The notes below the pieces were generated by a model. It worked only from the letters and a program-made list of their open reading frames with translations, made no database searches and was not told the DNA's origin. A stretch of DNA of 64,000 nt from Bacteroidota bacterium (GTDB lineage: Bacteria; Bacteroidota; Bacteroidia; Chitinophagales; Saprospiraceae), in assembly GCA_020160935.1 (NCBI GenBank), contig JAIUPL010000006.1:124001-188000 (forward strand). The letters are read 5' to 3'. The position numbers were made by a program, and so were the translations under genes. Positions 6,731 through 62,448 of this stretch are shown here, piece after piece. The first letter of the stretch is position 1; each line of letters begins with the position of its first letter.

Positions 6731-7942
6731 ATGCTCAATATTATTCTTTTTGACTCCGATGCTCGCAGCCACCTGCAACCACTGACCAGTACCCGACCCA
6801 TGGGCGAACTTCGCCTGGGGATGCTTTCTCTTCGTGAGAAATGGGAACGCCGCTTGCGTGGGAGTGTTTCTTATATTACACAAGAGTATTTGCAGGAAAA
6901 ATACCCTATTCATATCGAGGAAGAAAACCTCGTTGTCAATAGCGGCATTATTCCGACCGAGCAGTTGTGCCGCCGTATCGACGAGATCGGTATGGGCGAA
7001 GCCTTGCTATATCAGGGTGAACTGGTGGCAGCCCGCCTGAATGGATCTCAATTTGAAGCCCTGATTGAAGACGAAGAGGTGCGCGAACTAATGGGCAAGG
7101 AGGTGGAAAGTCACATCCAGATCATCAGTCTTCAGCACTTATGGGAAATGACCCGCTTGAATGCTTCTGCTATTCAGGATGACTTCCAGTTGCTCACCTC
7201 CGGCAAAAAGAGCCAGCCAGTTTCTCCTACCAACCGCATTATTGGCCCTACCCAGAATGTTTTTGTGGAAGAGGGCGTGCAGATGGAATGCTGCATTCTG
7301 AATGCCCACGACGGGCCAATTTACATCGGAAAGGATGCAGTGGTCATGGAAGGCTGCATGTTTCGTGGGCCGATAGCCATCGGAGCGGGTTCGATCGTGA
7401 AGATGGGTTCCAAATTCTATGGGCCGGTTTCCATCGGCCATGGATGCCGGGTAGGCGGCGAAATCGTTCGCTCGATCATGTACCCCAATTCCAACAAAGC
7501 GCACGACGGTTATCTCGGCGATTCCGTAGTGGGGGAGTGGTGCAACCTCGGCGCAGCCACCAACAATTCCAACCTGAAAAACAACTATTCGGAAGTAAAA
7601 CTCTGGGACTACGATACCCAGCGATTTGAAAAAACCGGCGAAACATTTGTCGGGCTCATCATGGGCGACCATGCCAAATGCGGTATCAATACTATGTTCA
7701 ATACCGGAACCGTAGTGGGCGTATTTGCCAATGTGTTTGGCGCCGGATATCAGCGCAATTTTATTCCCGATTTTAGTTGGGGCGGCCCCGACAAAGGTTA
7801 TCGCACCTACAAATTCTCGGAAGCCTGCGAAACAGCCGAGATTGTTATGTCGCGTCGCAACCAGCCCTTTACCGACTACGATAAAGCCATCCTGTATCAT
7901 GTGTACGATCATGCAGCGGGATTCAGAACTTGGGAGAAATAA
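6731..7942 (+). CDS. GlmU-like sugar-nucleotidyltransferase / acetyltransferase (alt_bact_glmU)
   Basis: A 403-residue protein of the Bacteroidota GlmU family (TIGR03991 type), predicted to join UDP-GlcNAc pyrophosphorylase and glucosamine-1-phosphate acetyltransferase activities for cell-wall precursor supply. The N-terminal half is a divergent nucleotidyltransferase domain (LTSTRPMGELRLGMLSLREKW; the RP..LR motif replaces the usual LxGGxGTR). The C-terminal half is a left-handed beta-helix of hexapeptide repeats (PIYIGKDAVVMEGCMFRGP, AIGAGSIVKMGSKFYGPVSIGHG) ending in a GAATNNSNLKNNYSEVK turn. Its stop codon TAA (7940-7942) already lies in the repeat element that follows. Confidence 0.9.
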   Translation: MLNIILFDSDARSHLQPLTSTRPMGELRLGMLSLREKWERRLRGSVSYITQEYLQEKYPIHIEEENLVVNSGIIPTEQLCRRIDEIGMGEALLYQGELVAARLNGSQFEALIEDEEVRELMGKEVESHIQIISLQHLWEMTRLNASAIQDDFQLLTSGKKSQPVSPTNRIIGPTQNVFVEEGVQMECCILNAHDGPIYIGKDAVVMEGCMFRGPIAIGAGSIVKMGSKFYGPVSIGHGCRVGGEIVRSIMYPNSNKAHDGYLGDSVVGEWCNLGAATNNSNLKNNYSEVKLWDYDTQRFEKTGETFVGLIMGDHAKCGINTMFNTGTVVGVFANVFGAGYQRNFIPDFSWGGPDKGYRTYKFSEACETAEIVMSRRNQPFTDYDKAILYHVYDHAAGFRTWEK

Positions 7943-8108
7943 AGGTTGATGAGGGTTGATAAAGGTTGATGAGGGTTGATATTTAGCCACTCGATGAGAG
8001 AAAAATCACCCCTTACCCTGAGCCGCCACTTATCAACCCTCATCAACCTTTATCAACCCTCATCAACCTTTATCAACCCTCATCAACCTTTATCAACCCT
8101 CATCAACC
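7941..8108. repeat. Decamer-built palindromic element, copy 1
   Basis: The left arm (7941-7980) is four decamers alternating AAAGGTTGAT and GAGGGTTGAT. The right arm (8031-8108) is about eight reverse-complement decamers. The centre starts with ATATTTAGCCACTCGA (7981-7996), which has lost its inner complementary arm. The same decamers and nearly the same core occur at 54390-54565 in intact form. It fills almost the whole gap between the GlmU-like gene and purM. Confidence 0.9.
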
Positions 8109-8124
8109 AAAAAAGCATCCACTC

Positions 8125-9309
8125 ATGAACCTAAAATACGAGCTGCGCGGGGTATCAGCCTCCAAAGATGAAGTGCATGCAGCCATCCAGCACCTGGACA
8201 AAGGCTTGTATCCCAATGCATTTTGCAAAATATTGCCCGACCTGGCAGCAGGAAGTGCGCGCCATTGCAACCTCCTGCATGCCGATACTGCCGGAACAAA
8301 AACGAGCCTGGCTTATCTGTACTGGCGCGAAACTGGCGACTTGTCAGTTTGGGCTGGCGTGGCCCAGGATGCCATCGTTATGAACCTCGACGACATGGCG
8401 TGCGTGGGCTGTACCAACAATATTCTGCTCAGCAGCACCATTGGGCGCAACAAAACATTGATCCCGGGAGAGGTCATTGCAGCAGTGATTCGTGGCACGT
8501 CCGATTTTGTAGAAAATATGAGCCGACACGGTGTACATATACATCAGGCAGGCGGCGAAACGGCAGACGTAGGTGACATCGTGCGTACCATTGATGTCGG
8601 TTTTACGGCATTTGCGCGCATGAAACGCAGCGATGTACTGGTAAATAATATCCGCCCGGGGGATGTCATTGTCGGACTTGCTTCTTTCGGGCAGTCCACC
8701 TACGAAAACACCTACAATGGCGGCATGGGTAGCAATGGCCTCACCGCTGCCCGACACGATGTGTTGTCAAAATTATACGCAGAGAAATACCCGGAAAGTT
8801 ATGACCCCCGTTTGCCAGATTCGGTAGTATATACTGGAAATCAGCAACTTACGAATTTGGTGGAAGTGCCCGGCGCCCAGGGGCCACAACAAATTCCAGT
8901 GGGCAAACTCATACTTTCTCCAACCAGAACCTACCTTCCGGTGTTACAGGAAGTGCTGCGCTTGCATCGGAAGAAAATTCACGGCCTGATACACGTAACG
9001 GGCGGCGGACAAACGAAAGTGCTTAAATTTGTCAAAGATGTACACATCGTCAAAGACAATCTATTTGAACTGCCACCGTTATTCCGCCTGATTCAGCAAA
9101 GCAGTGGCACCGAGTGGCGCGAGATGTATCAGGTATTCAATATGGGCCATCGAATGGAAATTTACGTATCGCCCAAAAATGCCGATGCCATACTGGCCAT
9201 TGCTGAAAAATACGGTATCGACGCCCGAATTCTTGGTCGTGTAAAAAGGGCCCAGGGAGAACGGGTAACCGTAAAATCGCCACAGGGCAAATTTGAATAC
9301 GAAGGTTAA
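8125..9309 (+). CDS. purM: Phosphoribosylformylglycinamidine cyclo-ligase (AIR synthase)
   Basis: A 394-residue PurM of the longer Bacteroidota type, forming aminoimidazole ribonucleotide from FGAM with ATP in purine synthesis. Visible landmarks are HADTAGTKTSLAYLYWRETGD near the N-terminus, DAIVMNLDDMACVGC, the HQAGGETADVGDIV nucleotide-binding segment, SFGQSTYENTYNGGMGSNGLTAARH, the GLIHVTGGGQTKVLKF motif and FNMGHRMEIYV near the C-terminus. The canonical protein is about 345 residues; the difference is an insertion in the second half. No promoter is recognisable in the repeat-filled leader, so read-through from the upstream gene is possible. Confidence 0.95.
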   Translation: MNLKYELRGVSASKDEVHAAIQHLDKGLYPNAFCKILPDLAAGSARHCNLLHADTAGTKTSLAYLYWRETGDLSVWAGVAQDAIVMNLDDMACVGCTNNILLSSTIGRNKTLIPGEVIAAVIRGTSDFVENMSRHGVHIHQAGGETADVGDIVRTIDVGFTAFARMKRSDVLVNNIRPGDVIVGLASFGQSTYENTYNGGMGSNGLTAARHDVLSKLYAEKYPESYDPRLPDSVVYTGNQQLTNLVEVPGAQGPQQIPVGKLILSPTRTYLPVLQEVLRLHRKKIHGLIHVTGGGQTKVLKFVKDVHIVKDNLFELPPLFRLIQQSSGTEWREMYQVFNMGHRMEIYVSPKNADAILAIAEKYGIDARILGRVKRAQGERVTVKSPQGKFEYEG

Positions 9310-9338
9310 ATGACAATATTCTAGAACACAATATAGCC

Positions 9339-9866
9339 ATGAGAAAGCACTTGCTTTTTGCACTCGTTTCGCTTGTTTTTCTCTCTTGCAAGCCAACCCC
9401 GGCCGATCTGGAAAAGAAACTCGTCGACCTGGACAAGGAAATCGGCGGCGCCAAAGCACCCAATAAAGAAAAGGCTGCTCAATTCATCCAGACTTCCGAA
9501 GAACTCGCAGCACTCGTACAATCTTCCGATCAGGAAAAATACGTCAATGTTTTGCTCAAGGCGGCTGGACTGGCCAAGGCCGTTGACAACCCAACAAAAG
9601 CCATCGAATTGTATAGCAAGGTATCGGAAGGATTGCCACAACACGCCAAGGCGCCCTCTGCACTGTTCATGCAGGCTTTTATCTACGAAAACGATATGGG
9701 GGAGATGCAAAAAGCCAAAACGACTTACGAATCTTTCCTGCAACGTTATCCTGGCGACCCTGACTTTGCTGATGATGCCCAAAACGCATTGAAAATGCTG
9801 GGCAAATCGCCGGAGGAAATCGTCAAGGAGTTTGAAAAAATGCAACAAGAGGTTAAAACGCAGTAA
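9339..9866 (+). CDS. TPR-containing lipoprotein
   Basis: A 175-residue protein with a short signal peptide ending in the lipobox LVFLSC (Cys at about 17). The mature part is helical and acidic, with TPR-like units around NPTKAIELYSKVSEGLPQHAKAPSALFMQAFIYENDMGEMQKAKTTYESFLQRYPGD. The repeat style matches the YfiO/Tol-Pal-associated class of small TPR lipoproteins, but no specific function can be assigned. Its TAA shares one base with the ATG of the next gene, so the two are translated from one message. Confidence 0.8.
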   Translation: MRKHLLFALVSLVFLSCKPTPADLEKKLVDLDKEIGGAKAPNKEKAAQFIQTSEELAALVQSSDQEKYVNVLLKAAGLAKAVDNPTKAIELYSKVSEGLPQHAKAPSALFMQAFIYENDMGEMQKAKTTYESFLQRYPGDPDFADDAQNALKMLGKSPEEIVKEFEKMQQEVKTQ

Positions 9867-10732
9867 TGAGTCCGTTCGGGCAACAACTCGAAACCTTTAT
9901 TCAGTCTGCCGATCCCGGGTGTCGGCTGCGCCTGGCTCCCACGCCTTCCGGTTATTTACATGCCGGTAATGCCCTGAATTTCATTTTTAACTGGATGCTT
10001 GCGCGCCGCAACAACGGCCGCTTGTTGCTGCGAATCGACGACCTCGATGCAGACCGAAAACGTTCTGCTTTCGTACAGGACGTGTTTGACAGTCTCCACT
10101 GGCTCGAACTGGATTGGGAAGAAGGGCCGCGCGATGAATCGGATTTTGAACAAAACTGGTCGCAACACCTCCGACTTTCCCTTTACCACTCAGAACTGCA
10201 AAAACTGCGCGAAACCGGACTGCTATTTGCCTGTCGAAAATCACGCAGCGACCTGGCGCCGTTTGGAGGCCAGTATCCGGAAACCTTTCGCGAGCAGGGA
10301 CTTTCACTCGACGACCCGGATGTCGCCTGGCGCATTAGAACGCCTGAAGGCTTTCCAATGCCCGATTTTATTGTGCGCCGCCGCGATGGTTTACCGGCCT
10401 ACCAGATAGCCAGCATGGCCGATGATGTGCATTTTGGCATTACATATGCCATCAGGGGCAACGACCTGGAAGCATCTACGCAGGCGCAAAGGTTTCTGGC
10501 TTCCTGTACAGGAAATGATATGTTCTTGAATATCAAATTTTTACACCATCCTTTGATCCTGGATACTGAAGGCGAAAAACTGTCCAAATCCGCAGGAGCC
10601 GCTTCCTTGCAGGCGATGCGAGCGGCCGGCATTTCACCTGAAATGGTACTAAGGCAGGCGGCTGATTTGCTGGGTTTACCGTCGGAGACAATAAAAACTG
10701 TTCAAAACCTGTTGAATTTTTTTCGAGGGTAA
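9866..10732 (+). CDS. Glutamyl-Q tRNA(Asp) synthetase-like protein
   Basis: A 288-residue truncated class I synthetase resembling GluQ, which glutamylates queuosine in tRNA(Asp). It has the catalytic core only: RLAPTPSGYLHAGNALNF (HIGH-type motif as HAGN), LLLRIDDLDADRKR, YQIASMADDVHFGITYAIRGNDL, and the KMSKS-type loop EKLSKSAG. The anticodon-binding domain of GluRS is missing, as in GluQ. Canonical GluQ binds zinc through several Cys in the middle; here only one Cys is present in that region (ACRKSRSD), so the zinc site appears lost. Its ATG overlaps the stop of the lipoprotein gene by one base. Confidence 0.8.
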   Translation: MSPFGQQLETFIQSADPGCRLRLAPTPSGYLHAGNALNFIFNWMLARRNNGRLLLRIDDLDADRKRSAFVQDVFDSLHWLELDWEEGPRDESDFEQNWSQHLRLSLYHSELQKLRETGLLFACRKSRSDLAPFGGQYPETFREQGLSLDDPDVAWRIRTPEGFPMPDFIVRRRDGLPAYQIASMADDVHFGITYAIRGNDLEASTQAQRFLASCTGNDMFLNIKFLHHPLILDTEGEKLSKSAGAASLQAMRAAGISPEMVLRQAADLLGLPSETIKTVQNLLNFFRG

Positions 10733-10893
10733 GAGCATGTTCGGGATTTTTTTGCCAGGCCTGAAAAGCGGCTTTTTTGCGCGTTTTTCACCTTTTTTCA
10801 CTTACATAGTCACCACTATGTGCATAAAAAAACGCGTAGAACGTACAAAAAATCCATCTTTTCAGAAGCAGGCAAAAAATCCCAAACATGCTC
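10733..10893. repeat. 161-bp imperfect palindrome between the GluQ-like gene and argS
   Basis: It begins right after the stop codon. The outer arms pair GAGCATGTT (10733) plus GGGATTTTTTTGCC with GGCAAAAAATCCC plus AACATGCTC (to 10893). Further inside, CTGAAAAG pairs with CTTTTCAG, GCGCGTTTTT with AAAAAAACGCG, and the tip is ACATAGT-cacc-ACTATGT (10804-10821). The whole block can fold as one long hairpin. Confidence 0.8.
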
Positions 10894-10900
10894 TAAAACG

Positions 10901-10925
10901 TTGGAGGGAAAAACTGCTACTTTTG
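10901..10925 (+). promoter_or_regulatory. Probable argS promoter
   Basis: TACTTTTG (10918-10925) matches the TAnnTTTG box exactly. A TTG at 10901-10903 is closer than usual (14 nt). The leader to the ATG at 10943 would be about 12 nt, which argues against the in-frame upstream start at 10820. Confidence 0.6.
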
Positions 10926-10942
10926 CGCCTCACTTTTTTCCT

Positions 10943-12796: not shown

Positions 12797-12841
12797 AGAG
12801 GTGAGAGGTGAGAGGCCACAAAACCATTAAAAATTACGATT

Positions 12842-14521: not shown

Positions 14522-14564
14522 GGTTTTAACACACTCTTCTGACGTTATTTCAGGCAGAAAATTT

Positions 14565-14572
14565 TAGGTTTG
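14565..14572 (+). promoter_or_regulatory. Candidate -7 box upstream of the T9SS protein at 14.7 kb
   Basis: TAGGTTTG matches TAnnTTTG and would give a leader of about 130 nt. A weaker box (TATCTTTA near 14671) lies closer to the start codon. Either could drive the gene. Confidence 0.4.
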
Positions 14573-14709
14573 CACCCTCAAAAGCCAACTATTGCAAACA
14601 CTCCATGAAAATATAGGCAAAATTTCGTCATTTCGAAGGTTTCTCTTCAAGGGCGCCGTTTTAACCTGTTATCTTTACCGTCATTTAAGACTAAAAACTT
14701 GTTTTGATC

Positions 14710-27373: not shown

Positions 27374-27436
27374 CGTAGACGATGTAACCACAATTTCTGT
27401 TTTGTGGGCAAGGGAGTAGATTTTTCCCCATAGGTC

Positions 27437-27639
27437 TTTCGTAGAGTAGTTTCCTGCGTAGAGTATTTTCCCGCAGAACTCGCAGATTTACCCGCAGAAC
27501 TCGCAGAACGTAGAGTACGCCTATTTCTTCAAAGCGATCAAAATGTGTACTCTACGGATACTCTACGTTCTGCGAGTTCTGCGGGTAAATCTGCGAGTTC
27601 TGCGGGAAAATACTCTACGCAGGAAAATACTCTACGAAA
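27437..27639. repeat. Large palindrome with 81-bp arms
   Basis: The arms at 27437-27517 and 27559-27639 are reverse complements with a single mismatch and surround a 41-bp loop. Each arm holds two copies of CCCGCAGAACTCGCAGA and three of CGTAGAGTA. It lies in the 473-bp convergent gap between the small protein pair and the EGF-like lipoprotein, between their two separate terminators. No gene is seen in it. Confidence 0.95.
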
Positions 27640-27704
27640 AACCTTCGCAATCTGCCGGAAACCAGTGTGTCTCCTGATTAAAAAAATCCACCCTGCCTTC
27701 GTAG

Positions 27705-31701: not shown

Positions 31702-34200
31702 ATGGATTTTAAAAAATTTATCCCGCACCTGATCGCTATTGCCCTGCTGATGTTGGTATCAGCCGTATTTTTTGCACCCAATGCCTTTAGTGGCAAAGTG
31801 CTGCCACAGTCGGATAACGACAAAGCGCGCGGAATGCAAACGGAAATTCAGGATTACCTGAAAAAAGAAGGTAAATCTCCCTTGTGGACAAATAGTGCTT
31901 TTGGCGGGATGCCCGCTTTCCAGATATATGCACCGGTAAAAGGAAACCTGACCACACCCATCTACAAAACCCTGTTTTTGTGGACGGACATCACGACTAT
32001 CTGGGCGCAGATTTTTGTGGCCATGTTTTGTATGTACTTCTTCCTCAGTGTGTTGAAGTTGGACTGGCGGGTGGCTGTTTTTGGTGCAGTGGCATTCGGT
32101 ATCACCTCCTACAATGTGGATATTCTGGAGGCCGGACACTCCACAAAAATGGCTGCTTTGGCGCTGGCGCCGGGGGTTTTTGCAGGACTGGCACTTGCTT
32201 TTAACGGGAGAATAATACTTGGATCGGCCATTACTGCCCTGTTTATCGCCATGCAGTTGAATGCTAACCACGTGCAGATTACTTACTACACATTGTTGCT
32301 GGCTGGCATCTACTTCCTCACTCAATTCATTGATGCATTTCGCCATAAAGCCTTTGCCAGTTGGGGCAAAGCGCTGGTAGCCACCGGCCTTGCCATTGCC
32401 ATCGGATTTGCCTGCAACCTCTCGCGCATCTGGCCTACCTACGAATATGGTCAGGAAACAATCCGTGGCAAATCCGAACTGAGCCAGAAATCCTCTAAAG
32501 GAGACGGGCTCGACAAAGACTACCTGTTTGGCTGGAGTTACGGCGTTTGTGAGTCGATGACGCTCTTGGTACCACATGCTTCGGGTGGTGGTTCCAATGA
32601 GTCTTTCCGCAATACAGAACTATACAAAACCCTTTCCCGGAAGTACAGTCAGCAAATGAGCCCGCAGCAGGCGGCTCAGCAAACAGCCGGACTCATGTAC
32701 GCAGGCGATCAGCCATTTGTCGGTACGGCCATTTACTTTGGCGCCATTGTTTGTTTCCTGTTCTTCCTCGGCGCTTTTCTGGCACAAGGCAGCAGCAAAT
32801 GGTGGATGCTGGCTGGTGGACTTTTCATGGTTTCGCTGGCCTGGGGAAAAAACTTTTTCCTCAACTATGTCCTGTACGATTACTTGCCCATGTTCAACAA
32901 GTTCCGTGCAGTGTCCATGGCGCTGGGAATGGGGCAATTGTGTTTTGCTGCGCTGGCAGCCATTGGGTTACAGAAATTATGCGATCCTGATATTGCGCTC
33001 GACCGTAAAAAACGCGCGCTGACGATTGCCACAGGCGCTACGGTGCTGCTCACGCTGATGGCATTCGTATGCGCTCCCGATGCAGGCCCCAACGACAGCG
33101 CGCTGGCGCAACTGCCCGATCTGATGAGTGCGCTGCAAAAAGACCGTGCATCGCTGATTCGTGGAGATGTGTTCCGCTCGCTGGGCTTTGTACTAGCCGC
33201 AGCAGGCTTGATCTGGCTGTACCTGCAAGGCAGAATGAAGGCTGGTCTGACGGTTATTCTGGTGGCATTACTCTCGCTGGCCGATCACTGGCTGGTATGC
33301 GCCCGCACGATTTCGTCCGATAAATACGAAAGTAAACGGGCGGCTACGGCTCCACCTCAGCCGGAAGCATTTGACCTCAAAATCAAACAGGATACAGATC
33401 CAAATTATCGCGTGCTCGACCTGTCGCGTGGCGGTATTCCGTTCAACGCCACTACTTCCTATTTCCACAAAAGCCTGAGCGGCTATCACGCTGCCAAACT
33501 CCAGCGTTTTCAGGAAGTGGTGGATACTTTCCTGACCAAAGACATTGCCAGCAACCTGCATATTGTAGGCATGCTGAATGGCAAATACATTATTAGTCAA
33601 AAAGGAGATGTTATTCCCAACCCGGACGTGTGCGGCAATGCCTGGTTTGTCAAACATTTTGACGTAGTGCCTACGGCGGATGCAGAATTCAATGCATTAC
33701 ACAAACTCAATCCGAAAGACACGGCGGTGGTGCAACAGGCATTTGCAACTTCTCTGCAAGGCCTTCAAATTCAGACAGATAGCAGCAACTTCATTCGCCT
33801 GAGCCATTACCATCCCGACAAGATGGAATACGAATACTCGGCAAAAACGGAGCAACTGGCCGTTTTCTCTGAAATTTACTATCCTGCTGAAAAAGGCTGG
33901 AAATGCTACCTGAACGGTCAGCCTGCGCCTGATTTTATCAAAGCCGACTACCTGCTGCGCGCCATGCGCCTGCCTGCCGGACAAAACATGAAACTGGAAA
34001 TGCGCTTCGAACCGAAGTCGTACTATCTGGGTGAAAAAATTGCCATGGGAGCGTCTTTGCTCACGTTGTTGCTGCTGGTGGGAGGATTGTTCTGGTTTTA
34101 TCGGAATGGCGCCGTAGAAGATCCGAATCGCCTTGCTGAAAATGAGCCTCCTGCTCCTGCCAAGCCTGTGGCGCCGGCAAAACCGGGCAAGAAGAAGTAA
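31702..34200 (+). CDS. YfhO-like polytopic membrane protein
   Basis: An 832-residue protein of the YfhO family (GT-C-like membrane glycosyltransferase superfamily). It has about a dozen hydrophobic helices, an early PQSDNDKARGMQTEIQDYL loop, WTNSAFGGMPAFQIYAP, a large extracytoplasmic domain (about 560-780; IYYPAEKGWKCYLNGQPA) and a last helix near 790. The C-terminus is a Pro/Ala/Lys tail. YfhO proteins modify lipoteichoic acid in Firmicutes; the role in Bacteroidota is not established. ATG 31702 is preferred to TTG 31693. A palindrome follows. Confidence 0.88.
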   Translation: MDFKKFIPHLIAIALLMLVSAVFFAPNAFSGKVLPQSDNDKARGMQTEIQDYLKKEGKSPLWTNSAFGGMPAFQIYAPVKGNLTTPIYKTLFLWTDITTIWAQIFVAMFCMYFFLSVLKLDWRVAVFGAVAFGITSYNVDILEAGHSTKMAALALAPGVFAGLALAFNGRIILGSAITALFIAMQLNANHVQITYYTLLLAGIYFLTQFIDAFRHKAFASWGKALVATGLAIAIGFACNLSRIWPTYEYGQETIRGKSELSQKSSKGDGLDKDYLFGWSYGVCESMTLLVPHASGGGSNESFRNTELYKTLSRKYSQQMSPQQAAQQTAGLMYAGDQPFVGTAIYFGAIVCFLFFLGAFLAQGSSKWWMLAGGLFMVSLAWGKNFFLNYVLYDYLPMFNKFRAVSMALGMGQLCFAALAAIGLQKLCDPDIALDRKKRALTIATGATVLLTLMAFVCAPDAGPNDSALAQLPDLMSALQKDRASLIRGDVFRSLGFVLAAAGLIWLYLQGRMKAGLTVILVALLSLADHWLVCARTISSDKYESKRAATAPPQPEAFDLKIKQDTDPNYRVLDLSRGGIPFNATTSYFHKSLSGYHAAKLQRFQEVVDTFLTKDIASNLHIVGMLNGKYIISQKGDVIPNPDVCGNAWFVKHFDVVPTADAEFNALHKLNPKDTAVVQQAFATSLQGLQIQTDSSNFIRLSHYHPDKMEYEYSAKTEQLAVFSEIYYPAEKGWKCYLNGQPAPDFIKADYLLRAMRLPAGQNMKLEMRFEPKSYYLGEKIAMGASLLTLLLLVGGLFWFYRNGAVEDPNRLAENEPPAPAKPVAPAKPGKKK

Positions 34201-34219: not shown

Positions 34220-34325
34220 CCACTCTACGCTTTGTGCCCTTTGTGAAACCTTGGTGTCCGTTGTGGTTAAATTTTTTTCCACGAAGAACACAAAGGTTTC
34301 ACAAAGGGCACAAAGCGTAGAGTGG
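34220..34325. repeat. Palindrome between convergent genes (33-bp perfect arms)
   Basis: The arms 34220-34252 and 34293-34325 are perfect reverse complements (CCACTCTACGCTTTGTGCCC outward). They extend inward with mismatches (CCTTGGTGTCCGTTGTGG against CCACGAAGAACACAAAGG) to an AT-rich loop. Inside each arm CTTTGTG is repeated. It ends 8 bp before the stop of the minus-strand gene. Confidence 0.93.
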
Positions 34326-42650: not shown

Positions 42651-44432
42651 ATGAAGAAATTTTCACCACTCTTCCTGGGTGGGCTACTCTTTTTTGCCCT
42701 CCTTCAATTGATTCCCCTGCAAAACATACATGCACAGTCGTCCAGATCGGGCGTTACTATCCGTGTCACAGTCAATGGTACTCCTACAGATTTCACAGAA
42801 GGTACCTGCGGCTTCGGTTATGCCTTGTTCGGCGGCTTTCCAAGCGAAGAACTTTGTGCTCCGATTGCCTGGGCGCACGATGTTATTGGCCAGGACTCTA
42901 TCGTATGCGACTCTATTCCGGTTGGTTCATTGACTGGAAAAATTGGCCTGGTTCGCCGGGGCGGTTGCACAGTTGCAGCGAATGGTGCTTTTGCGGCCAA
43001 ATCGTTTAATGCACAACGCGCGGGCGCACTCGCCGTTTTTGTTGCCAACAACTCTTCTGTAGCGACACAAACTGATTGCAGCATCCAGACGGCTGGTGGC
43101 ACCTCGTCCACCGTAACGGTTCCTGTATTTTTCCTGAGCCGGCAAATGACCAACTTTATCAATACGGCCATCACAGGCGGCCAAACTGTTGAAGTTTGCA
43201 TTTTGCCACCCACTGTGTTGATTAACAGCGCTTTCTATCCCGCTCAGAACGTTCAGACTCCGGCTTCGCAGATTGCTACAGACACGATGGGCTTTTCTGC
43301 CAATATTACGAATACCAGAGGTGTCGAACTGACGAACGTGGTGGTGAGTGCAAAAGTTGAATCCGCCGCAGGTGCAGAACTTTACTCTACGTCTTTGACA
43401 ATTCCAACGCTGGCTGCCGATGTTTCCGACAGTTTGTTCCAGTTGCCAGGCTTGTTCGTACCCAATTTGCCAGTCGGAGACTATGTATTCCATTATTCTA
43501 CTACGAGCGATCCGGACGGTCAGTACAGCATCCGGCATGATTTCCGCGATGGATTCAAGGTAACCAACAACCTTTTTGCTAAAGATGACAATGTCGGTAC
43601 TCATGAAAATATCACAGCCCTGCGCCCTGGTACACTCCCTGATGCAGGCTGGGCAGTCGGCAACCTGTATGTAATGTCATCGGGCGCTCAGGACGATTAT
43701 GTTGTCAGAACAGTTGAGTTTTCGCACGCTGTGAATGCTGGTACTGTTCCGATTAACGAAGTAGGCGCAGACATGTTCCTTTTCAAAGTGAATGACGACG
43801 TAGCCGCAGACTGGAATCTGTTTGAAGGCACCGACTTCCTTTCTCCAAGTTTTGAATGGATTGGTACAGGTAGTTACGAGGCTCCTGCCAATGCAGCAAA
43901 CTTCCAGTTGCAGCAAGTGGAACTTATCGACCTGGTGAATGCTTTACCAGGCGTACCTGTGGCAGCAGGCGATACGTACGTTTTGGCTGCTTTTTACCCT
44001 GATAGCAACAACGTAGTATTCAATACGTTCGATTTTGACGTTGAAGCGGCAGGACCGGAAGGCATTAATACACTTTCGTATTCAACCCAGTGGTTCCTGG
44101 GTGGTTTTTCCAGCGGCTGCTGCGCCATTTTGCGCATGTACATCGACCTTGCAACGATCACCGACGAGCACCAACTGCCGGAAGCATCCATGCAAGTGTT
44201 CCCGAACCCGATCAAAGATGTACTCAATCTGGGCGTGAGCCTGGATAAGCCTACTGATATCACCATCACTATTGCTGAAATCAGTGGTCGTACGATCCGT
44301 ATCGAGGACAAACAAGGTGTTACGAATGAAACGTTGACGTACCAGTTGCCGCAACTCGCTTCCGGCACCTACCTCGCTCGTCTTGCTACGAAAGAGGGTA
44401 CGCTGACGAAGAAATTTGTAGTTCAGAAATAA
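42651..44432 (+). CDS. PA-domain surface protein with T9SS type A tail (second of tandem pair)
   Basis: A 593-residue paralogue of the preceding gene over its whole length. It keeps the signal peptide (ALLQLIPLQNIHAQ), PA domain (GKIGLVRRGGCTVAANGAFAAKSFNAQRAGALAVFVANN; TVPVFFLSRQMTNFI), CARDB-like module and sorting domain (MQVFPNPIKDVLNLGVSLDKP to TLTKKFVVQK). The sorting domains of both copies and of the 14.7-kb protein share IxGRTIRIEDxxGxTNETLTYQLPQL-type wording, pointing to recent duplication or conversion. It has its own promoter. Its TAA lies in the first bases of the palindrome that follows. Confidence 0.88.
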   Translation: MKKFSPLFLGGLLFFALLQLIPLQNIHAQSSRSGVTIRVTVNGTPTDFTEGTCGFGYALFGGFPSEELCAPIAWAHDVIGQDSIVCDSIPVGSLTGKIGLVRRGGCTVAANGAFAAKSFNAQRAGALAVFVANNSSVATQTDCSIQTAGGTSSTVTVPVFFLSRQMTNFINTAITGGQTVEVCILPPTVLINSAFYPAQNVQTPASQIATDTMGFSANITNTRGVELTNVVVSAKVESAAGAELYSTSLTIPTLAADVSDSLFQLPGLFVPNLPVGDYVFHYSTTSDPDGQYSIRHDFRDGFKVTNNLFAKDDNVGTHENITALRPGTLPDAGWAVGNLYVMSSGAQDDYVVRTVEFSHAVNAGTVPINEVGADMFLFKVNDDVAADWNLFEGTDFLSPSFEWIGTGSYEAPANAANFQLQQVELIDLVNALPGVPVAAGDTYVLAAFYPDSNNVVFNTFDFDVEAAGPEGINTLSYSTQWFLGGFSSGCCAILRMYIDLATITDEHQLPEASMQVFPNPIKDVLNLGVSLDKPTDITITIAEISGRTIRIEDKQGVTNETLTYQLPQLASGTYLARLATKEGTLTKKFVVQK

Positions 44433-44581
44433 GAACACGGATTTCGCGGATAAAAAGGGCGGATTACACGGATTAGATAGGAATTAGGGGAGGCATTCGT
44501 TCATATTAGAATCGAATTTCCCTGTAATACCCATCCAATCCGTGTAATCCGCCCTTTTTTATCCGCGAAATCCGTGTTCTT
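44431..44581. repeat. Palindrome overlapping two convergent stop regions
   Basis: The left arm (44431-44474) and right arm (44537-44581) are complementary over 44 bp with one extra T. They contain variants of a 14-16-bp unit (ACGGATTTCGCGGAT, GCGGATTACACGGAT). A further unit, ACGGATTACGCGGAT in reverse, continues into the last codons of the minus-strand cytochrome gene (HGLRG-stop). Confidence 0.93.
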
Positions 44582-44583
44582 TT

Positions 44584-45624
44584 TTATCCGCGTAATCCGT
44601 GTATCCATTCCCGAATCAGCGCCACCCCTTCCTCATGTACCAGTTGCCGACCCAGTTCGGGCATACGAATACCCGGGTCGGTGTGTTCCATGCGGTAGAG
44701 CAGGATGCTCTCGGAAGGCTTGCCCGGCACGATGCCATATTTCCGGTTGCCGCTGCCGCGCCCGGCGGCCACGGGCGGTTTGCCTACTCCGAGATGTTCG
44801 AGGTCGGTTTCTTCTGCATTTAAAAACATGCCGCTCGTGCTGGCCGGGCCATGCGGGTTATGGCAGTGTGCACAGTTGGCGTCCAGATAGGCGCGTGCCG
44901 ATGCATCCAGACTGATCTCCCGTTGCCGATAATCAGCCAGGTGAAATGCTTTTTCGGGATCAAATGAAGCAGGAAGGCCCTCCATTTGGCCTTGTTGCTG
45001 AAAGATTTGTAGTTGATTGCGGTTGCCAGCCAGGGTGCGGTCTAGTTGCTTTTGCGTGACGCCAATAGGCGTAAATTGCCCATCGTAGGAATGGCAGCCT
45101 TTGCATTGGTTGACGTTGGGCACAACATATTCCAGATTAATTTTTTTCCCGCCAGCATCGATCCAGGATACCGGAAATGATGCGCCTGCCACTTCCAGTG
45201 TGGCATCGGTTTGTTCGTTATTCCATATATATGTAAGTGCTTTCCAGCCTTTTACTTCTTTTAAAAGTAGCCGGGTTTCTACGATACGTCGCCCTTTTTC
45301 GGGGTGCGCTGCTTCCAACGGGTAGTAGAAATTTTTAATGATAGTGGCGCCTTCCGGGAACTGAAATGCACCGCTTTCCCGGTACTGCAATCGAGCGTCG
45401 GAAGGAAGGTAAATAAACCTTGATTTTTCAGCATAATCACTGAAAAGGGGCGCATTCACTTCATACAGGAATACGCCTTCGGCAGGTTGGAGATTTTGCA
45501 AGGCGCCTGAGAAATAACCGTATTCGCTTAGCAAGGTTTTAGGCGCTTTTTCGGGCAAAATATTGGCCGAAAGCATAAAAATGCCCATTGCAAACAAGCC
45601 AAAAATCTTAAAAGGCGCAGTCAT
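44584..45624 (-). CDS. Dihaem c-type cytochrome-like protein (TIGR03806/SO2930 family)
   Basis: A 346-residue exported protein with a signal peptide (FKIFGLFAMGIFMLSANILP). It has two haem-binding motifs, CKGCH (in NVNQCKGCHSYDG) and CAHCH (in DANCAHCHNPHGPAST). Family stretches are LSEYGYFSGALQNLQPAEGVFLYEVNAPLFSDYAEKSRFIYLP and FPEGATIIKNFYYPLE. The start at 45624 overlaps the upstream stop by 17 nt; the longer frame enters the beta-helix gene. TIGR03806 proteins regularly pair with TIGR03805 beta-helix proteins, as here; the joint function is unknown. The last codons fall in the palindrome described above. Confidence 0.88.
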   Translation of the reverse strand: MTAPFKIFGLFAMGIFMLSANILPEKAPKTLLSEYGYFSGALQNLQPAEGVFLYEVNAPLFSDYAEKSRFIYLPSDARLQYRESGAFQFPEGATIIKNFYYPLEAAHPEKGRRIVETRLLLKEVKGWKALTYIWNNEQTDATLEVAGASFPVSWIDAGGKKINLEYVVPNVNQCKGCHSYDGQFTPIGVTQKQLDRTLAGNRNQLQIFQQQGQMEGLPASFDPEKAFHLADYRQREISLDASARAYLDANCAHCHNPHGPASTSGMFLNAEETDLEHLGVGKPPVAAGRGSGNRKYGIVPGKPSESILLYRMEHTDPGIRMPELGRQLVHEEGVALIREWIHGLRG

Positions 45625-53814: not shown

Positions 53815-53930
53815 TGGGTGGTGTTTTTGTGTTTTAGTGTTTTGGAATTACGTTGCTCTTGGCATTTAGTATTCATAATGCCGAGAGCGAAGCACCTCCA
53901 AAACACAAAAACACTAAAACACCAAAACCC
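53815..53930. repeat. Palindrome of GTGTTTTWG units
   Basis: The left arm (53819-53847) contains GTGTTTTTG, GTGTTTTAG and GTGTTTTGG. The right arm (53897-53923) holds the reverse complements in swapped order. An inner stem GCTCTTGGCATT/AATGCCGAGAGC closes the loop. The stop codon of the OsmC gene (53930-53932) abuts the right arm. Confidence 0.85.
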
Positions 53931-54376: not shown

Positions 54377-54389
54377 TCGTGTGAAAAAA

Positions 54390-54565
54390 GAGGGTTGGTG
54401 AATGTTGATGTTGATGAGGGTTGATGAGGGTTGATGAGGGTTGATAAAGGTTGATGAGGGTTGATGAGGGTTGATATTCAGCCACTCGAATAAGATCGAT
54501 TGCTTCATTTTTCGAGTGGCTGAATATCAACCCTCATCAACCTTTATCAACCCTCATCAACCCCT
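54390..54565. repeat. Decamer-built palindromic element, copy 2 (intact core)
   Basis: The left arm (54390-54473) repeats TTGATGAGGG with one TTGATAAAGG. The core is an inverted repeat: ATATTCAGCCACTCGA (54474-54489) against TCGAGTGGCTGAATAT (54512-54527). The right arm (54528-54565) carries CAACCCTCAT and CAACCTTTAT units. It shares units and core with 7941-8108. It occupies the MFS-osmC gap, 6 bp from the MFS stop. Confidence 0.92.
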
Positions 54566-54570
54566 AACCA

Positions 54571-55809: not shown

Positions 55810-55912
55810 TCAATTTGCAAGATGGTGGAACGATGGTCGCAAAGGTTGTAAACTGTGGCGATATTCCAAAACCCCAAATAACAAGGCGTTTTCTGGACGT
55901 AATTTGACCAAT

Positions 55913-55947
55913 AAAAAAGCGTAGAGCATGATTCATGCTCTACGCCT
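55913..55947 (-). terminator. Terminator of the M16 peptidase gene
   Basis: A 27-nt near-perfect palindrome (GCGTAGAGCATGA-TTCATGCTCTACGC on the plus strand) whose minus-strand end is followed by TTTTTTA. Confidence 0.85.
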
Positions 55948-55974
55948 CTCTCATATCTCACACCGCTCTACTCT

Positions 55975-58746: not shown

Positions 58747-58874
58747 ACCTGTGTGAATAATTTTGGTGAGCAAATAATCTGAAGCGTCGAAACGCCCGCC
58801 AAGGTTTGTTATTTCACACTGTATACTCAAAAGAGTTGGATAAAAGAATGCAGAATTGCTATAAACGGCAAATC

Positions 58875-59249
58875 TCACTTGCCGGGCTGCTCCCATAGTT
58901 CGATTTTGTTGCCATCCGGGTCGAGTACCCATGCAAATTTTCCATATTCCATTTCCATTGGATCACCGATCAATTCTACTCCTTCGGCTTTCAGCGCTAT
59001 TACCAATGCATCCAGATTTTCCACCCTCAGGTTGAGCATGAACGAGGTAGTAGACGGCGCGAAATAGTCGCTCTCCTGTTTGAAAAAACTCAACAAGTTG
59101 TAGGCATCAGGGCTTGGGTCGTCTTTAAAATTAAATTGTGCTCCCCATGACTCCATTGAAATGCCCAGGTGTGTGGCATACCATTGCCGGCTGCGCTCTA
59201 CATCTTTGCAACGCAAAAATATGCCGCCGATACCAATTACTCTTTTCAT
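58875..59249 (-). CDS. VOC family (glyoxalase-like) protein
   Basis: A 124-residue single VOC module: VIGIGGIFLRCKDVERSRQWYATHLGI at the start, and FAWVLDPDGNKIELWEQ at the end with the conserved metal-site Glu. The substrate is unknown, and the first metal ligand position is not a clear His, so catalysis is uncertain. ATG 59249 is the family start; the longer frame runs back through the terminator hairpin at 59279. It sits 128 nt upstream of the M16 gene start. Confidence 0.88.
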   Translation of the reverse strand: MKRVIGIGGIFLRCKDVERSRQWYATHLGISMESWGAQFNFKDDPSPDAYNLLSFFKQESDYFAPSTTSFMLNLRVENLDALVIALKAEGVELIGDPMEMEYGKFAWVLDPDGNKIELWEQPGK

Positions 59250-59273
59250 GTATAATCTTGTTTTTAGATGGAC

Positions 59274-59310
59274 AAAAAGAGCCGCTTGCGAGATACTCGC
59301 AAGCGGCTCC
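59274..59310 (-). terminator. Terminator of the DUF5362 genes
   Basis: GAGCCGCTTGCGAG (59279-59292) pairs with CTCGCAAGCGGCTC (59297-59310); read on the minus strand it is followed by T5. Confidence 0.88.
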
Positions 59311-59326
59311 GCGAAAAAAGATCGAC

Positions 59327-59806
59327 TCAATAATTGGCGCCGGTATCTGTCATTCGTCCAACGAAGATCAATACCGCAACCAACATGATAAGGTAAAGTG
59401 CTATGAAAGTGATGGTCATAATACCATATAGTCTGAAATGATTTCGCAAGTTGAGCCAGGCATTGGCAAATGCATTCTGGTCAGTAAAATTCAAGGCCCG
59501 GTTGATGCTGTTTGAAAACCGGAGGTGGTACAAAGCCAGGAAAAACACACATGCCAGCGCCCCGAGATACAACAACACAATGACCCAGGAGAAGGAACCG
59601 ATGAGAGAATTGACTGGCTCTGGAAGGGTTCCCATGGCTGCCATCATGCGCAAGGCTGGGATAATAGCCAGGGCCGACAACAGGTACAGCCCCGTAACAA
59701 TAAAGCCTAAAACGGCAAAAAACATAGCCCATTTGGAAGTGATACGCCAGTTGGTTTCCATGCCAGGCGTAACACGCAGATCACCATTATTGAAATTGGA
59801 TTCCAT
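59327..59806 (-). CDS. DUF5362-type membrane protein (second copy)
   Basis: A 159-residue protein with four transmembrane helices (about 27-50, 68-92, 125-150 with an amphipathic region between). It shows the DUF5362-like pattern of an N-terminal WRITSKWAMFFAVLGFI, a central LYHLRFSNSINRALNFTDQNAFANAWLNLRNHFRLYG and a last helix. It is a paralogue of the next upstream gene, 29 nt away. Function is unknown. Confidence 0.8.
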   Translation of the reverse strand: MESNFNNGDLRVTPGMETNWRITSKWAMFFAVLGFIVTGLYLLSALAIIPALRMMAAMGTLPEPVNSLIGSFSWVIVLLYLGALACVFFLALYHLRFSNSINRALNFTDQNAFANAWLNLRNHFRLYGIMTITFIALYLIMLVAVLIFVGRMTDTGANY

Positions 59807-59835
59807 ATTGAAATTGGAAATTGAGTTCTGAAAAT

Positions 59836-60300
59836 TTAGAAAGTGCTGCGCATATTGGTAAGCATCGCAATACCAAAAATGAGGAACAATACGTACAAGG
59901 CAATGACAACGATTACCAGAATGCCAATAAACTTGTAGAAGCGCTTCAGGTAATCAAACCCGTCTTCCAGTGCATTGTTGTCGCCAGTATTGATGGCTAG
60001 TTTCGTCAGCGTCGAAAATTTGTAATAATACCAGGCTGGGAAAAAAAGCAATGCGGCATACAAAAACAAAAGCACCACTACAACCATTCCTTCTGCAGTT
60101 CCGGAGTTGACGCTCATTAATCCGCCAAAGAACATGCCCAGCATCATAAATCCTAGCCCAATAAACATGAGTACTGCCAGGAACAGTGCCCAGTTGGCGG
60201 TTTGTTGCCAATATCGGCGAATATCGTCGGTAATTTTAAGACCCTCGTCGGAAGCATCTGCTCCGAGACCGGCATCGAGGGGTTGATTCAGGTCTTCCAT
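59836..60300 (-). CDS. DUF5362-type membrane protein (first copy)
   Basis: A 154-residue protein with the same layout as the downstream copy: TANWALFLAVLMFIGLGF, YYKFSTLTKLAINTGDNNALEDGFDYLKRFYKFIG and a last hydrophobic helix (ILVIVVIALYVLFLIFGIAML). The shared N..DNNALE/FTDQNAF motif marks the duplication. A TACCTTCG box near 60345 (minus) could be its promoter, with the divergent GNAT gene using TAATTTTG at 60384. The pair ends at the terminator at 59274. Confidence 0.82.
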   Translation of the reverse strand: MEDLNQPLDAGLGADASDEGLKITDDIRRYWQQTANWALFLAVLMFIGLGFMMLGMFFGGLMSVNSGTAEGMVVVVLLFLYAALLFFPAWYYYKFSTLTKLAINTGDNNALEDGFDYLKRFYKFIGILVIVVIALYVLFLIFGIAMLTNMRSTF

Positions 60301-60383
60301 GTAGATTGTTTTTCGTTAAAAAGTTTTTGATGTTGTGTAGCGAAGGTAAGCGCTGCCTTCTATTTTTAGATACTTTGTTGGTG

Positions 60384-60391
60384 TAATTTTG
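60384..60391 (+). promoter_or_regulatory. -7 box of the GNAT gene
   Basis: TAATTTTG matches TAnnTTTG about 20 nt before the ATG at 60412. Confidence 0.5.
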
Positions 60392-60411
60392 AACCTCCTA
60401 CCGAAACAAGG

Positions 60412-60864
60412 ATGACTACGATGAACATTGAAATACATTTAATTGCGTTTGGCACTCCGGAATATGATGAGGCCGTGCGTTTGCGGTACGATATATTACG
60501 TGCGCCGCTCGGGCTGACCTATACACCCGAACAACTGGCTGAAGAGTACAACCAAATTCACCTGGCCGGATTTGACAGCCAGGGTGTGCTGATTGCCTAC
60601 CTCAATCTTACCCCTGCTACAGAGGAGGTGGTCAAAATGCGGCAAGTAGCAGTGGCTTCCACATGGCAGGGTAAAGGTATTGGCAGCATGCTGGTAGCCG
60701 AATCTGAAAAAACAGCAAGCAGGCTGGGTTTTTCACTCATAACGCTCCATGCGCGGGAATCGGCCGTCCCGTTTTATGAACGATTGGGGTATGGCCTTGT
60801 AGGAGAACGATTTGAAGAGGTGACCATACCCCATTTTAAAATGGAAAAAACGCTCCGGATGTAA
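60412..60864 (+). CDS. GNAT family N-acetyltransferase
   Basis: A 150-residue single-domain acetyltransferase using acetyl-CoA. The core is VVKMRQVAVASTWQGKGIGSMLVAESEKTASRLGFSLITLHARESAVPFYERLGYGLVGE, containing the Q/RxxGxG/A pyrophosphate loop (QGKGIG) and the usual second half. The N-terminal IAFGTPEYDEAVRLRYDILRAPLGL and DSQGVLIAYLNL resemble ElaA/YitI-like GNATs. The acceptor is unknown. Met-4 (60421) is an alternative start. The stop TAA lies in the left arm of the palindrome that follows. Confidence 0.92.
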   Translation: MTTMNIEIHLIAFGTPEYDEAVRLRYDILRAPLGLTYTPEQLAEEYNQIHLAGFDSQGVLIAYLNLTPATEEVVKMRQVAVASTWQGKGIGSMLVAESEKTASRLGFSLITLHARESAVPFYERLGYGLVGERFEEVTIPHFKMEKTLRM

Positions 60865-60971
60865 GGGCGACCCTTGTGGTCGCCCCTATGGGGGTATACA
60901 GAGGGTGACCATGCAGAGGGCGACTACGCAGAGGGCGACCACGCAGAGGGCGACCACAAGGGTCGCCCTTA
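60862..60971. repeat. Palindrome with tandem 15-mers
   Basis: The arms TAAGGGCGACCCTTGTGG... (60862-60885) and its complement (60948-60971) are perfect over 24 bp. The loop holds four 15-mer units of CAGAGGGCGACCACG (60899-60957) with substitutions. It joins two convergent genes, and the GNAT stop codon is inside the left arm. Confidence 0.93.
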
Positions 60972-60990
60972 CGGATCTATGGGCAATCAT

Positions 60991-62004
60991 TCAGGAATGT
61001 GTTTCGCCTTCCAGAAATAATTTCAGCAGGTGTTGCAGGCGGGAGATTTCTGTCTGCCAGGCCTGATGCCCGCTGTCGGAAAGTATTTCACGGAAAATGG
61101 CGCCCGGTATTTTTTCCGCCAGATAGCGTTGTTCAGAAACAGGATACAAGTGATCGGAACTGATGCCAATGACCATCGTTCGGGCCTGAATTTCAGCCAA
61201 TGCCGCCGCCATACTGCCTCTTCCACGGCCGATATGGTGGGTGTCGGCCGATTTTGACAGTGCAACACAGGAAAAAGCATTCCATGAAGCAGTGCGTTGA
61301 AGGCTATTTTCGCGCTGAAAGGATGCTGCCTTGTGGTTGCCGGACAAGCCATCCTGTTCGTTAACCATGGACTCATAACTGAGATAACTGCTTTCCTGTA
61401 TCAGTAATAATGCTTCTGCAGCCCTTAGGCCTGCCATGCCGGCGTCCGGGTGGCTTTTTTTCCAGGTGATGTCCGATTCGATTGCCATACGGCGTGATTC
61501 GTTGATTGCAAGGACCCATGGCGACTGCCGCGCATTGGTTGCGACAAGTACCAGGTTTTCAATGACAGTGGGCTCTTTTACAGCCCATTCCAATGCTTGC
61601 TGACCGCCGCTTCCCGGCCCGATGAGCATGTGAATTCGTTCGATTTTCAATCGTTTCCTGAGTGATTCATACGCATCTACCTGATCGCGGATGGTAACAA
61701 GCGGGAAGTCGTGAAAATAAATAGCACGTCCTTTTGCCGGATTTTCAGACAAGGGTTGTGTACTCCCGTAACAAGAGCCCAATGCATTTGCGCAAATGAT
61801 AAAGTACTTGTCGGGGTTTAAAAAAGCATCGGGACCAAAAAGCCCGGGCCACCATTCCATTACATCCGAACTCGTGTGAAAAGGATGACAAACCCACACT
61901 ACAGGGTTGGATGGTTTTCCATATGTATGATAGGCAATGGCTGGATGACTGAGCGACTGCCCATTTTCGAGGGTGAATACAGCAGGAATACGAAATTGAT
62001 TCAT
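60991..62004 (-). CDS. MetX-like alpha/beta hydrolase with altered nucleophile elbow
   Basis: A 337-residue member of the homoserine O-acetyltransferase fold. Family landmarks are SHPAIAYHTYG, VVWVCHPFHTSSD, PDKYFIICANALGSCYGSTQP, RDQVDAYESL, and the late Asp (GISSDHLYP) and His (SDSGHQAWQTE). The nucleophile region reads MLIGPGSGGQQALEWA instead of GGSxGGxQALEW: the family Ser position is Gly and a Ser appears one residue later. Activity is therefore uncertain; it may be a divergent acyltransferase or a hydrolase. Other methionine genes are not nearby. Confidence 0.8.
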   Translation of the reverse strand: MNQFRIPAVFTLENGQSLSHPAIAYHTYGKPSNPVVWVCHPFHTSSDVMEWWPGLFGPDAFLNPDKYFIICANALGSCYGSTQPLSENPAKGRAIYFHDFPLVTIRDQVDAYESLRKRLKIERIHMLIGPGSGGQQALEWAVKEPTVIENLVLVATNARQSPWVLAINESRRMAIESDITWKKSHPDAGMAGLRAAEALLLIQESSYLSYESMVNEQDGLSGNHKAASFQRENSLQRTASWNAFSCVALSKSADTHHIGRGRGSMAAALAEIQARTMVIGISSDHLYPVSEQRYLAEKIPGAIFREILSDSGHQAWQTEISRLQHLLKLFLEGETHS

Positions 62005-62086
62005 TGGAAAAGACTATAAAATATACAGGATTCAGGCAAAAGAAATGTGAAAAAATCCTACCTGTTTCTGCAATCAGTTTAAAAAT

Positions 62087-62121
62087 AAAAGACCTTCCGG
62101 CACGGCGCCGAAAGGTCTTTT
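62087..62121 (-). terminator. Terminator downstream of the 41-codon minigene
   Basis: AAAAGACCTTCCGGC (62087-62101) pairs with GCCGAAAGGTCTTTT (62107-62121) with one mismatch, followed on the minus strand by TTATTTTT. It separates the minigene from the MetX-like gene. Confidence 0.8.
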
Positions 62122-62148
62122 ACACATTCGAAACAAGTTCAGTCATGA

Positions 62149-62274
62149 TTACCTGTTCGCGTGCATACACAAAACACCCTTTGGGCCCGCACCATTTTTG
62201 CAGGAGCATCGGTACACTGGATGGATATAATTTCCAAAAGTACCCGGGTTGATATTTGTGTAATTGATTTTCAT
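62149..62274 (-). CDS. Candidate minigene, 41 residues
   Basis: An ATG-to-TAA frame reading MKINYTNINPGTFGNYIHPV, then YRCSCKNGAGPKGVLCMHANR. It has three Cys (RCSCK and LCMH) and a basic end, hinting at a small metal-binding or nucleic-acid-binding protein. On the minus strand a TTTG (62308-62311) and GTTATTTG (62279-62286, partial TAnnTTTG match) form a promoter just ahead of the ATG, and a clear terminator follows the stop. The message would be almost leaderless. No family is recognised. The plus strand holds a shorter frame that lacks such signals. Confidence 0.5.
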   Translation of the reverse strand: MKINYTNINPGTFGNYIHPVYRCSCKNGAGPKGVLCMHANR

Positions 62275-62332
62275 GCCGCAAATAACTGAACTAATGGGCT
62301 TTTTTGCCAAATTTTGAGACGTTAAATAAAAG

Positions 62333-62448
62333 TTATGAGTTATGAGTTATGAGTTATGAGTTATGAGTTATACTCACACTGCTATCGGCTTTTTCATTAG
62401 AGTGGCCAATAGCAATGTGAGTATAACTCATAACTCATAACTCATAAC
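62333..62448. repeat. Palindrome of TTATGAG heptamers
   Basis: The left arm has five TTATGAG units (62333-62367) and an inner stem around ACTCACACTGCTATCGGC. The right arm has the complementary inner stem (GCCAATAGCAATGTGAGT) and three complementary heptamers to 62448. It ends 7 bp from the stop codon of the coiled-coil gene. Confidence 0.92.

Follow-up and report, generated by a model that had tools for sequence, protein, structure and literature searches.

REPIN-like palindromes of many sequence families populate gene 3′ ends in a Saprospiraceae genome

The 64,000-nt stretch of DNA analyzed here (the window) spans positions 124,001 to 188,000 of contig JAIUPL010000006.1 from a Bacteroidota bacterium of the family Saprospiraceae (GCA_020160935.1). 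The genome of this organism, 5.84 Mb in 51 contigs, is designated G000, and the window corresponds to G000:C23:124001-188000. A preliminary description made from the letters of the window listed nine palindromes that follow genes, and all nine were found at those places. Seven have arms of 35-86 nt that are 83-100% complementary. The weaker palindrome at 10732-10894 is 74% complementary over 47 nt with ends of 21 bp at 95%, and the ends of 60861-60972 are perfect over 25 bp. Five of the nine occupy convergent gaps, four occupy codirectional gaps, and none lies in a divergent gap.

7939-8108: palindrome with the 10-bp words GGTTGATGAG/GGTTGATAAA on both arms; codirectional gap; holds the stop codon of the gene at 6731-7942 (+ strand)
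10732-10894: imperfect palindrome without tandem words, family starts AGAGCRTGTTCGGGATTTTTT; codirectional gap; overlaps the stop codon of the gene at 9866-10732 (+ strand)
27432-27644: palindrome with 86-nt arms, 98% paired, 21-bp words CCCGCAGAACTCGCAGATTTA between CGTAGAGTA modules; convergent gap
34220-34325: palindrome with 52-nt arms, 88% paired, CTTTGTG words; convergent gap with stop codons at 34200 (+ strand) and 34333 (− strand)
44427-44615: palindrome with the words CACGGATT/CGCGGATT; convergent gap; holds the stop codon at 44430-44432 and overlaps the end of the gene at 44584-45588 (− strand)
53819-53928: palindrome with 8-bp words (GTGTTTTG/A/T) and core GCTCTTGGCATT; convergent gap; abuts the stop codon at 53930 (− strand)
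54410-54563: palindrome with 10-bp words as at 7939 and core ATTCAGCCACTCGAA; codirectional gap
60861-60972: REP-like palindrome with 25-bp perfect ends GTAAGGGCGACC...GGTCGCCCTTAC and 15-bp tandem units inside; convergent gap; holds the stop codon at 60862-60864
62331-62448: palindrome with the 7-bp words AGTTATG on both arms and core ACTCACACTGCTATCGGC; codirectional gap

The RNA folding energy of each of the nine palindromes is lower than that of its 30 shuffles (z −7.4 to −22.2). A known structured RNA family was rejected, as the window contains no Rfam match at the gathering score. Most of the palindromes had been described as tandem units mirrored on the two arms. A repeat finder located tandem units in both arms of 7939, 27432, 54410, and 62331 and on a single side of 44427, 53819, and 60861, so mirrored arrays account for four of the nine and a majority is reached only by counting the three one-sided arrays. 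The palindrome at 34220 is loosely periodic by eye and the one at 10732 is non-tandem. The stop codons described in or next to the arms are confirmed, with four overlapping a palindrome (7940-7942, 10730-10732, 44430-44432, and 60862-60864) and the fifth, at 53930, abutting one.

Inverted repeats with arms of at least 20 bp, at least 80% pairing, and a span of at most 400 were collected from uninterrupted segments of five contigs, four of them (C14, C17, C21, and C23) selected for length and the fifth, C24, for synteny with a related genome, G028. This sample covers 1.023 of 5.84 Mb (17.5%), and some counts below refer to 864 kb. Genes were called with our own hexamer caller, which is non-standard, and gap occupancy was counted over gaps of at least 60 bp. 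The 864-kb sample contained 140 inverted repeats with arm-length quartiles of 35-60 nt. Five dinucleotide shuffles of the same sequence contained 1, 1, 1, 0, and 1, and a chance origin was rejected on these counts. The 1.023-Mb sample contained 172 inverted repeats; assuming that it is representative, the genome would contain ~980.

The preliminary description had proposed such a scan against gap type and had named an even spread, divergent gaps or gene interiors included, as evidence against its view; the observed distribution is uneven. None of the 172 palindromes is centered inside a called gene; 82 lie in codirectional gaps, 66 in convergent gaps, 21 in divergent gaps, and 3 at edges. The absence of palindromes between divergent genes is thus a property of the window but not of the genome sample. 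Palindromes occupied 61 of 88 convergent gaps, 80 of 318 codirectional gaps, and 21 of 127 divergent gaps. Convergent gaps account for the strong excess (Fisher p = 4e-15 versus divergent; p = 6e-14 versus codirectional), and codirectional occupancy is only marginally above divergent (p = 0.06). Within codirectional gaps, 63 of the 82 palindromes are nearer the stop codon and 19 nearer the next start, at a median of 7 nt from the stop versus 67.5 nt from the start. The palindromes are a genome-wide class located mostly just 3′ of genes, and the described tie between a shared layout and gene 3′ ends holds.

The 172 palindromes formed 31 clusters, 18 of them with two or more members, in agreement with the earlier conclusion that one family cannot explain all. 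The sequences differ because many families exist. The further argument that different sequences speak against mobility does not hold, because eight of the nine window palindromes belong to multi-copy families and near-copies of one palindrome are found at two sites in G028. Only 60861 stands alone among the 140 palindromes of the 864-kb sample. The families of 27432, 62331, 53819, 54410, 10732, 34220, and 44427 have 12, 11, 9, 9, 4, 3, and 3 members in that sample, respectively. In the whole genome, the word GGTTGATGAGGGTTGAT from 7939 occurs 249 times and GTTATGAGTTATGAGTTATGAG from the 62331 family occurs 149 times, and the reversed control of each occurs 0 times.

Layered arms are common, with tandem words on the outside followed by modules such as CGTAGAGTACACC or by a core ending near TTGGC. 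Composite arms carry two word types, for example at C21:126941, C24:127456, and C24:127900, and arms matching no listed word were found in 46 of 204 tested (172 of G000 and 32 of G028). The 5′ arms are poor in C (A.24, C.14, G.31, T.30; 147 arms) and are GT-rich in 115 of 140 and GT-poor in 23, an asymmetry about the palindrome center. In single cases the palindromes are nested. At C14:212671-213145 (L021:12671-13145), perfect 54-bp outer arms surround a complete palindrome of the CGCAGA family. CGGATT word sequence of ~26 bp flanks this inner palindrome on both sides, perhaps as a target duplication.

Orthologous gaps were compared between G000 and G028, which have a mean flank identity of 88%, with arms of at least 18 bp accepted and two palindromes assigned to the same family if at least 15% of their 8-mers were in common. 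Among 120 gap pairs, 30 had a palindrome in at least one genome (17 in both, 8 only in G000, and 5 only in G028). Ten of the 17 reached the same-family cut-off. Of the seven that did not, C24:20370 and C24:112838 have common words by eye, C24:85790 is uncertain, and C23:151306, C24:11518, C24:18638, and C24:22920 look like different families by eye. Remnants consisting of six or more common 8-mers were detected in 4 of the 13 gaps with a palindrome in one genome only. A second relative, G016, gave 24 pairs, and 10 of these had a palindrome (both genomes in 4, all below the cut-off, G000 alone in 2, and G016 alone in 4). Some gaps therefore keep a palindrome with exchanged sequence, and others gain or lose one.

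The window palindromes illustrate this range. The G028 gap orthologous to 44427 holds the same family, and the G028 counterpart of 53819 is of the same family with 67-nt arms, 100% paired, and different words. The gap of 54410 holds the same family in G028 and a palindrome with other words in G016, and G016 holds another family in the gap of 34220. At 62331 a palindrome is absent in G028 and present in G016 with another core, and at 60861 a palindrome is absent from both relatives. The two near-copies in G028, at C24:5708 and C24:18638, are almost identical over the central ~60 nt, and G000 has other palindromes at both sites. At C24:5708, G028 has outer arms of the family found there in G000 around another center, and these outer arms break off at matching positions on the two sides; at C24:18638 there is a short outer remnant of uncertain identity. 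Inspection by eye shows at least one difference between the near-copies that is matched on both arms and others that are unmatched. Mean orthologue identity over 17 pairs in a forced alignment was 0.81 for the outer, 0.74 for the middle, and 0.73 for the inner arm, 0.66 for the loop, and 0.71 outside the palindrome.

Palindrome density is ~1.7 per 10 kb in G000, 32 in 323 kb in G028, and 0-1.25 per 10 kb in ten other genomes (40 kb each; two with 4-5 kb); high density is not general among relatives. The commonest word was found in metagenome-assembled genomes (MAGs) named Saprospiraceae, Bacteroidetes, or Bacteroidota, among the matches listed. A palindrome is present at 58 of 76 listed loci of named Saprospiraceae and other Bacteroidota MAGs (80 fetched; 76 with the match away from the locus ends). 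An assembly artifact is unlikely because palindromes recur at orthologous gaps of other genomes and at these MAG loci.

The two arms of a palindrome are more alike than copies are. For 129 loci with arms of at least 35, the two arms of a locus were more similar to each other than to the best other sampled locus in 112 cases, equal in 6, and less similar in 11. The 14-mers absent elsewhere in the sample were mirrored in the other arm in 51% of cases, and this proportion fell only from 53% to 51% with a fourfold larger sample. One 31-mer of C14:204688 is found in the whole genome only in its own two arms. Word order is also mirrored (permutation combined p = 3e-4). Orthologue pairs from G028 and G016 with an arm identity of at least 0.6 contained 36 double changes versus 16.6 in slid controls, and 21 of the 36 convert one Watson-Crick pair to another. 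Template switching is reported to homogenize hairpin arms (PMC8604942) and to create hairpins (PMC8794818). Arm likeness fits this process and suggests template switching as the favored reading for arm maintenance in the present palindromes.

The observed pattern is real and strong, and it represents a relative of REPINs at gene ends that comprises many families, is sometimes nested, and exchanges quickly. We tentatively propose, at a probability of about 0.45, that gene 3′ ends of this clade hold REPIN-like palindrome populations of many sequence families. Copies would spread between gene ends, at times into the center of an existing palindrome, and would thereby produce layered, modular arms. 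Between spreads, template switching during replication inside the hairpin would copy arm onto arm, so that private changes become mirrored, and slippage would alter the number of words. Selection would purge copies lying in genes and in the majority of divergent (promoter) gaps, so that those remaining sit chiefly at 3′ ends, where they would probably serve as strong 3′ hairpins in mRNA end protection or as a convergent-transcript barrier.

Several observations weigh against this proposal. The arm comparison draws on 17.5% of the genome and is biased to the within-locus side by the 80% pairing requirement. Shared 14-mers are mirrored more often than private ones (71% versus 51%), and a private 26-mer had one genome occurrence and was not exactly mirrored. 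Word order was singly significant at 0.05 in only 5 of 34 loci. One-sided changes in the orthologue pairs number 128 versus 21 matched double changes, and 17 of these 21 come from four loci, C23:178376 (G016) and C24:5708, C24:20370, and C24:112838 (G028). Whole modules differ at these four loci, and replacement by another palindrome could therefore also give matched changes. Our confidence is lowered because most matched double changes sit in so few module-exchange loci. No clear case of loop inversion was found in 19 pairs, most of whose loops are unalignable either way; template switching can invert loops, though inversion is not required. A search for a mover identified none.

The families could instead have spread by plain dispersal, each being a non-autonomous REPIN- or MITE-like palindrome moved by a Y1/RAYT-type or other transposase; arms would be alike owing to the youth of the copies, and sites would switch family through repeated insertion and loss. 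Words and cores are common within families, as is the loop in the CGCAGA family by eye, and both the near-copies in G028 and the clustering of matched double changes in loci with whole-module differences fit this explanation. The genome contains two matches to PF01797 (Y1_Tnp), and 47 of 60 genomes searched, G000 included, have matches. We consider dispersal alone somewhat unlikely. Own arms exceeding the best other sampled locus in 112 of 129 comparisons and the private mirrored sequence speak against it. The Y1_Tnp match on C42 adjoins a palindrome of different sequence. A RAYT-like frame near 92.7 kb (G000:C23 ~92.6-93.2 kb; L029:8632-9156) has an MPNHIH motif, has no Pfam match, is apparently cut short, and lies within a 333-nt GC-rich inverted repeat that differs from the word-family palindromes. 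A reading we regard as rather unlikely makes the palindromes self-perfecting nested elements that are mobile, insert preferentially into existing centers by symmetric replacement, have the junction copied to the opposite arm by fold-back synthesis, and depend on a mover distinct from RAYT; sites in a clade of Bacteroidota would then persist while sequence is exchanged.

Selection on RNA is another explanation, in which strong 3′ hairpins that end or protect transcripts would be kept by compensatory substitutions with structure preserved and sequence free to change. The 3′-end and convergent location, the low folding energies, the retention of palindromes at sites despite sequence change, and the double changes that preserve pairing are all consistent with such selection. 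On the transcript strand of codirectional palindromes, however, G-T mismatches are not in excess over A-C mismatches (65 versus 78), so RNA-level selection leaves no trace in these mismatches. Palindromes in divergent gaps pair at least as well as codirectional ones (32/1030 versus 218/3911 non-Watson-Crick pairs), and T-runs are few. Selection on RNA is an unlikely explanation. The preliminary description had offered a local process or selection for strong 3′ hairpins; mirroring, as such a local process, is consistent with the likeness of the arms and with the private mirrored sequence, but the mismatch spectrum does not support RNA selection. It is very improbable that the palindromes are cassettes whose words are selected to present stop codons in all frames from either gene and so to cap truncated genes. 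Stop density is 0.089 reading inward, 0.036 outward, and 0.043 in intergenic sequence; all frames are stopped within 30 nt at 30% of 294 arm ends versus 7-9% in shuffles; and 61 of 214 facing gene ends have a stop at least partly inside the palindrome. Counted by family, the inward excess is present in only 12 of 18, and 2 singletons have more, 4 fewer, and 7 equal numbers. The effect is due to a few abundant words and is also seen in divergent gaps. Selection for inward stop codons, strong by copies and weak by families, is not claimed because of the family count.

Of the 214 palindrome feet that face a gene, only 7 carry a run of at least five T, which gives no support to a role in intrinsic termination. 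The palindromes are therefore not ordinary intrinsic terminators, in which a T-run directly follows the hairpin. At codirectional ends, terminator-like hairpins were present in 18 of 78 cases with a palindrome and 51 of 235 without (shuffled 14/78 and 14/235), and at convergent ends in 21 of 120 with and 16 of 52 without (shuffled 12/120 and 6/52). In convergent gaps such hairpins are rarer beside palindromes, which may partially replace terminators. Judged from sequence, the palindromes may function as strong 3′ hairpins, either stabilizing mRNA 3′ ends or separating convergent transcripts, or they may be tolerated at these sites. Bacterial stem-loops in general are enriched 3′ of stop codons and between convergent genes (PMC1590033, PMC13155455). 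The present palindromes share this location and differ in their arms of 35-60 nt (quartiles), multi-family repeats, and rarity of T-runs.

Known systems share parts of this architecture. REPINs are high-copy extragenic inverted doublets of REPs, 71 or 110 bp apart, that fold into a hairpin with a pairing spacer carrying compensatory changes; REPs lie chiefly in convergent and unidirectional gaps, with a convergent and 3′ bias, and their ends can supply stop codons (PMC3733652). The 172 hairpin-forming palindromes of the present sample are likewise high-copy and intergenic. They differ from these elements in that many arms consist of tandem 7-21 bp words rather than GTAG/CGTC-tagged REPs, in the many families per genome, nesting, and exchange of palindromes at a kept site, and in that no cognate RAYT was shown for the word families. 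Among the arm ends inspected by eye, from at most 7 members of each family, most show tandem words and lack the GTAG/CGTC tags, and 60861 begins GTAA. The Beggiatoaceae heptamer TAACTGA, described in PMC4679880, a paper that also has sections on cyanobacteria and Bacteroidetes, forms short intergenic tandem words, many per genome, with stops in all frames. These are direct repeats mostly toward start codons, whereas the present words are mirrored and lie mostly at gene 3′ ends, and a direct array of the TAACTGA type was rejected. Quasipalindrome template-switch homogenization (PMC8604942, PMC8794818, PMC7202029) involves arm-onto-arm copying and matched multi-base changes. The present proposal extends it to many palindromes at gene ends within a single genome, in which no loop inversion was found and changes are mostly one-sided. 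Searches of the open-access literature gave no description of mirrored tandem-word palindromes.

Two candidates, Y1_Tnp as the mover and SbcD loss as the cause, were set aside. Y1_Tnp does not clearly track the palindromes: G011 and G035, without Y1_Tnp, have 1 and 0 palindromes per 40 kb, but G021 and G022, with Y1_Tnp, have 1 and 2. Loss of SbcD (TIGR00619) does not discriminate, since G000 has no match but most same-genus genomes, G011 and G035 among them, have only sub-threshold matches. A full-length match over the cut-off was found in 4 of 36 same-genus genomes (G004, G008, G012, and G036), and G014 passes only with neighboring matches added. Plasmid spread was set aside on a search that covered 27432, 34220, 60861, and 62325-62455, leaving aside the other five palindromes; the first three gave no match. 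The query 62325-62455 matched five records, four from Serratia and one from Kovacikia, over 20-24% of its length. Of 395 genomes in the phylum, 15, G000 included, contain the 7-bp word three times in tandem, and 7 others contain the reversed control, so such 7-bp arrays are not rare elsewhere. The same word, GTTATGA, forms mostly unmirrored tandem arrays outside G000, with an inverted repeat nearby at 2 of 11 Bacteroidota and 1 of 15 viral-contig loci, and such arrays are also present in the Serratia and Kovacikia plasmids.

Palindromes at one type of site may be mobile families even if their sequences differ, and caution is needed before mobility is dismissed on sequence difference. If the proposed explanation is right, each genome would offer hundreds of palindromes whose gain, nesting, expansion of words, and mirroring of arms can be traced between relatives, and the origin of REP-like elements and the maintenance of hairpins by template switching would become directly testable.

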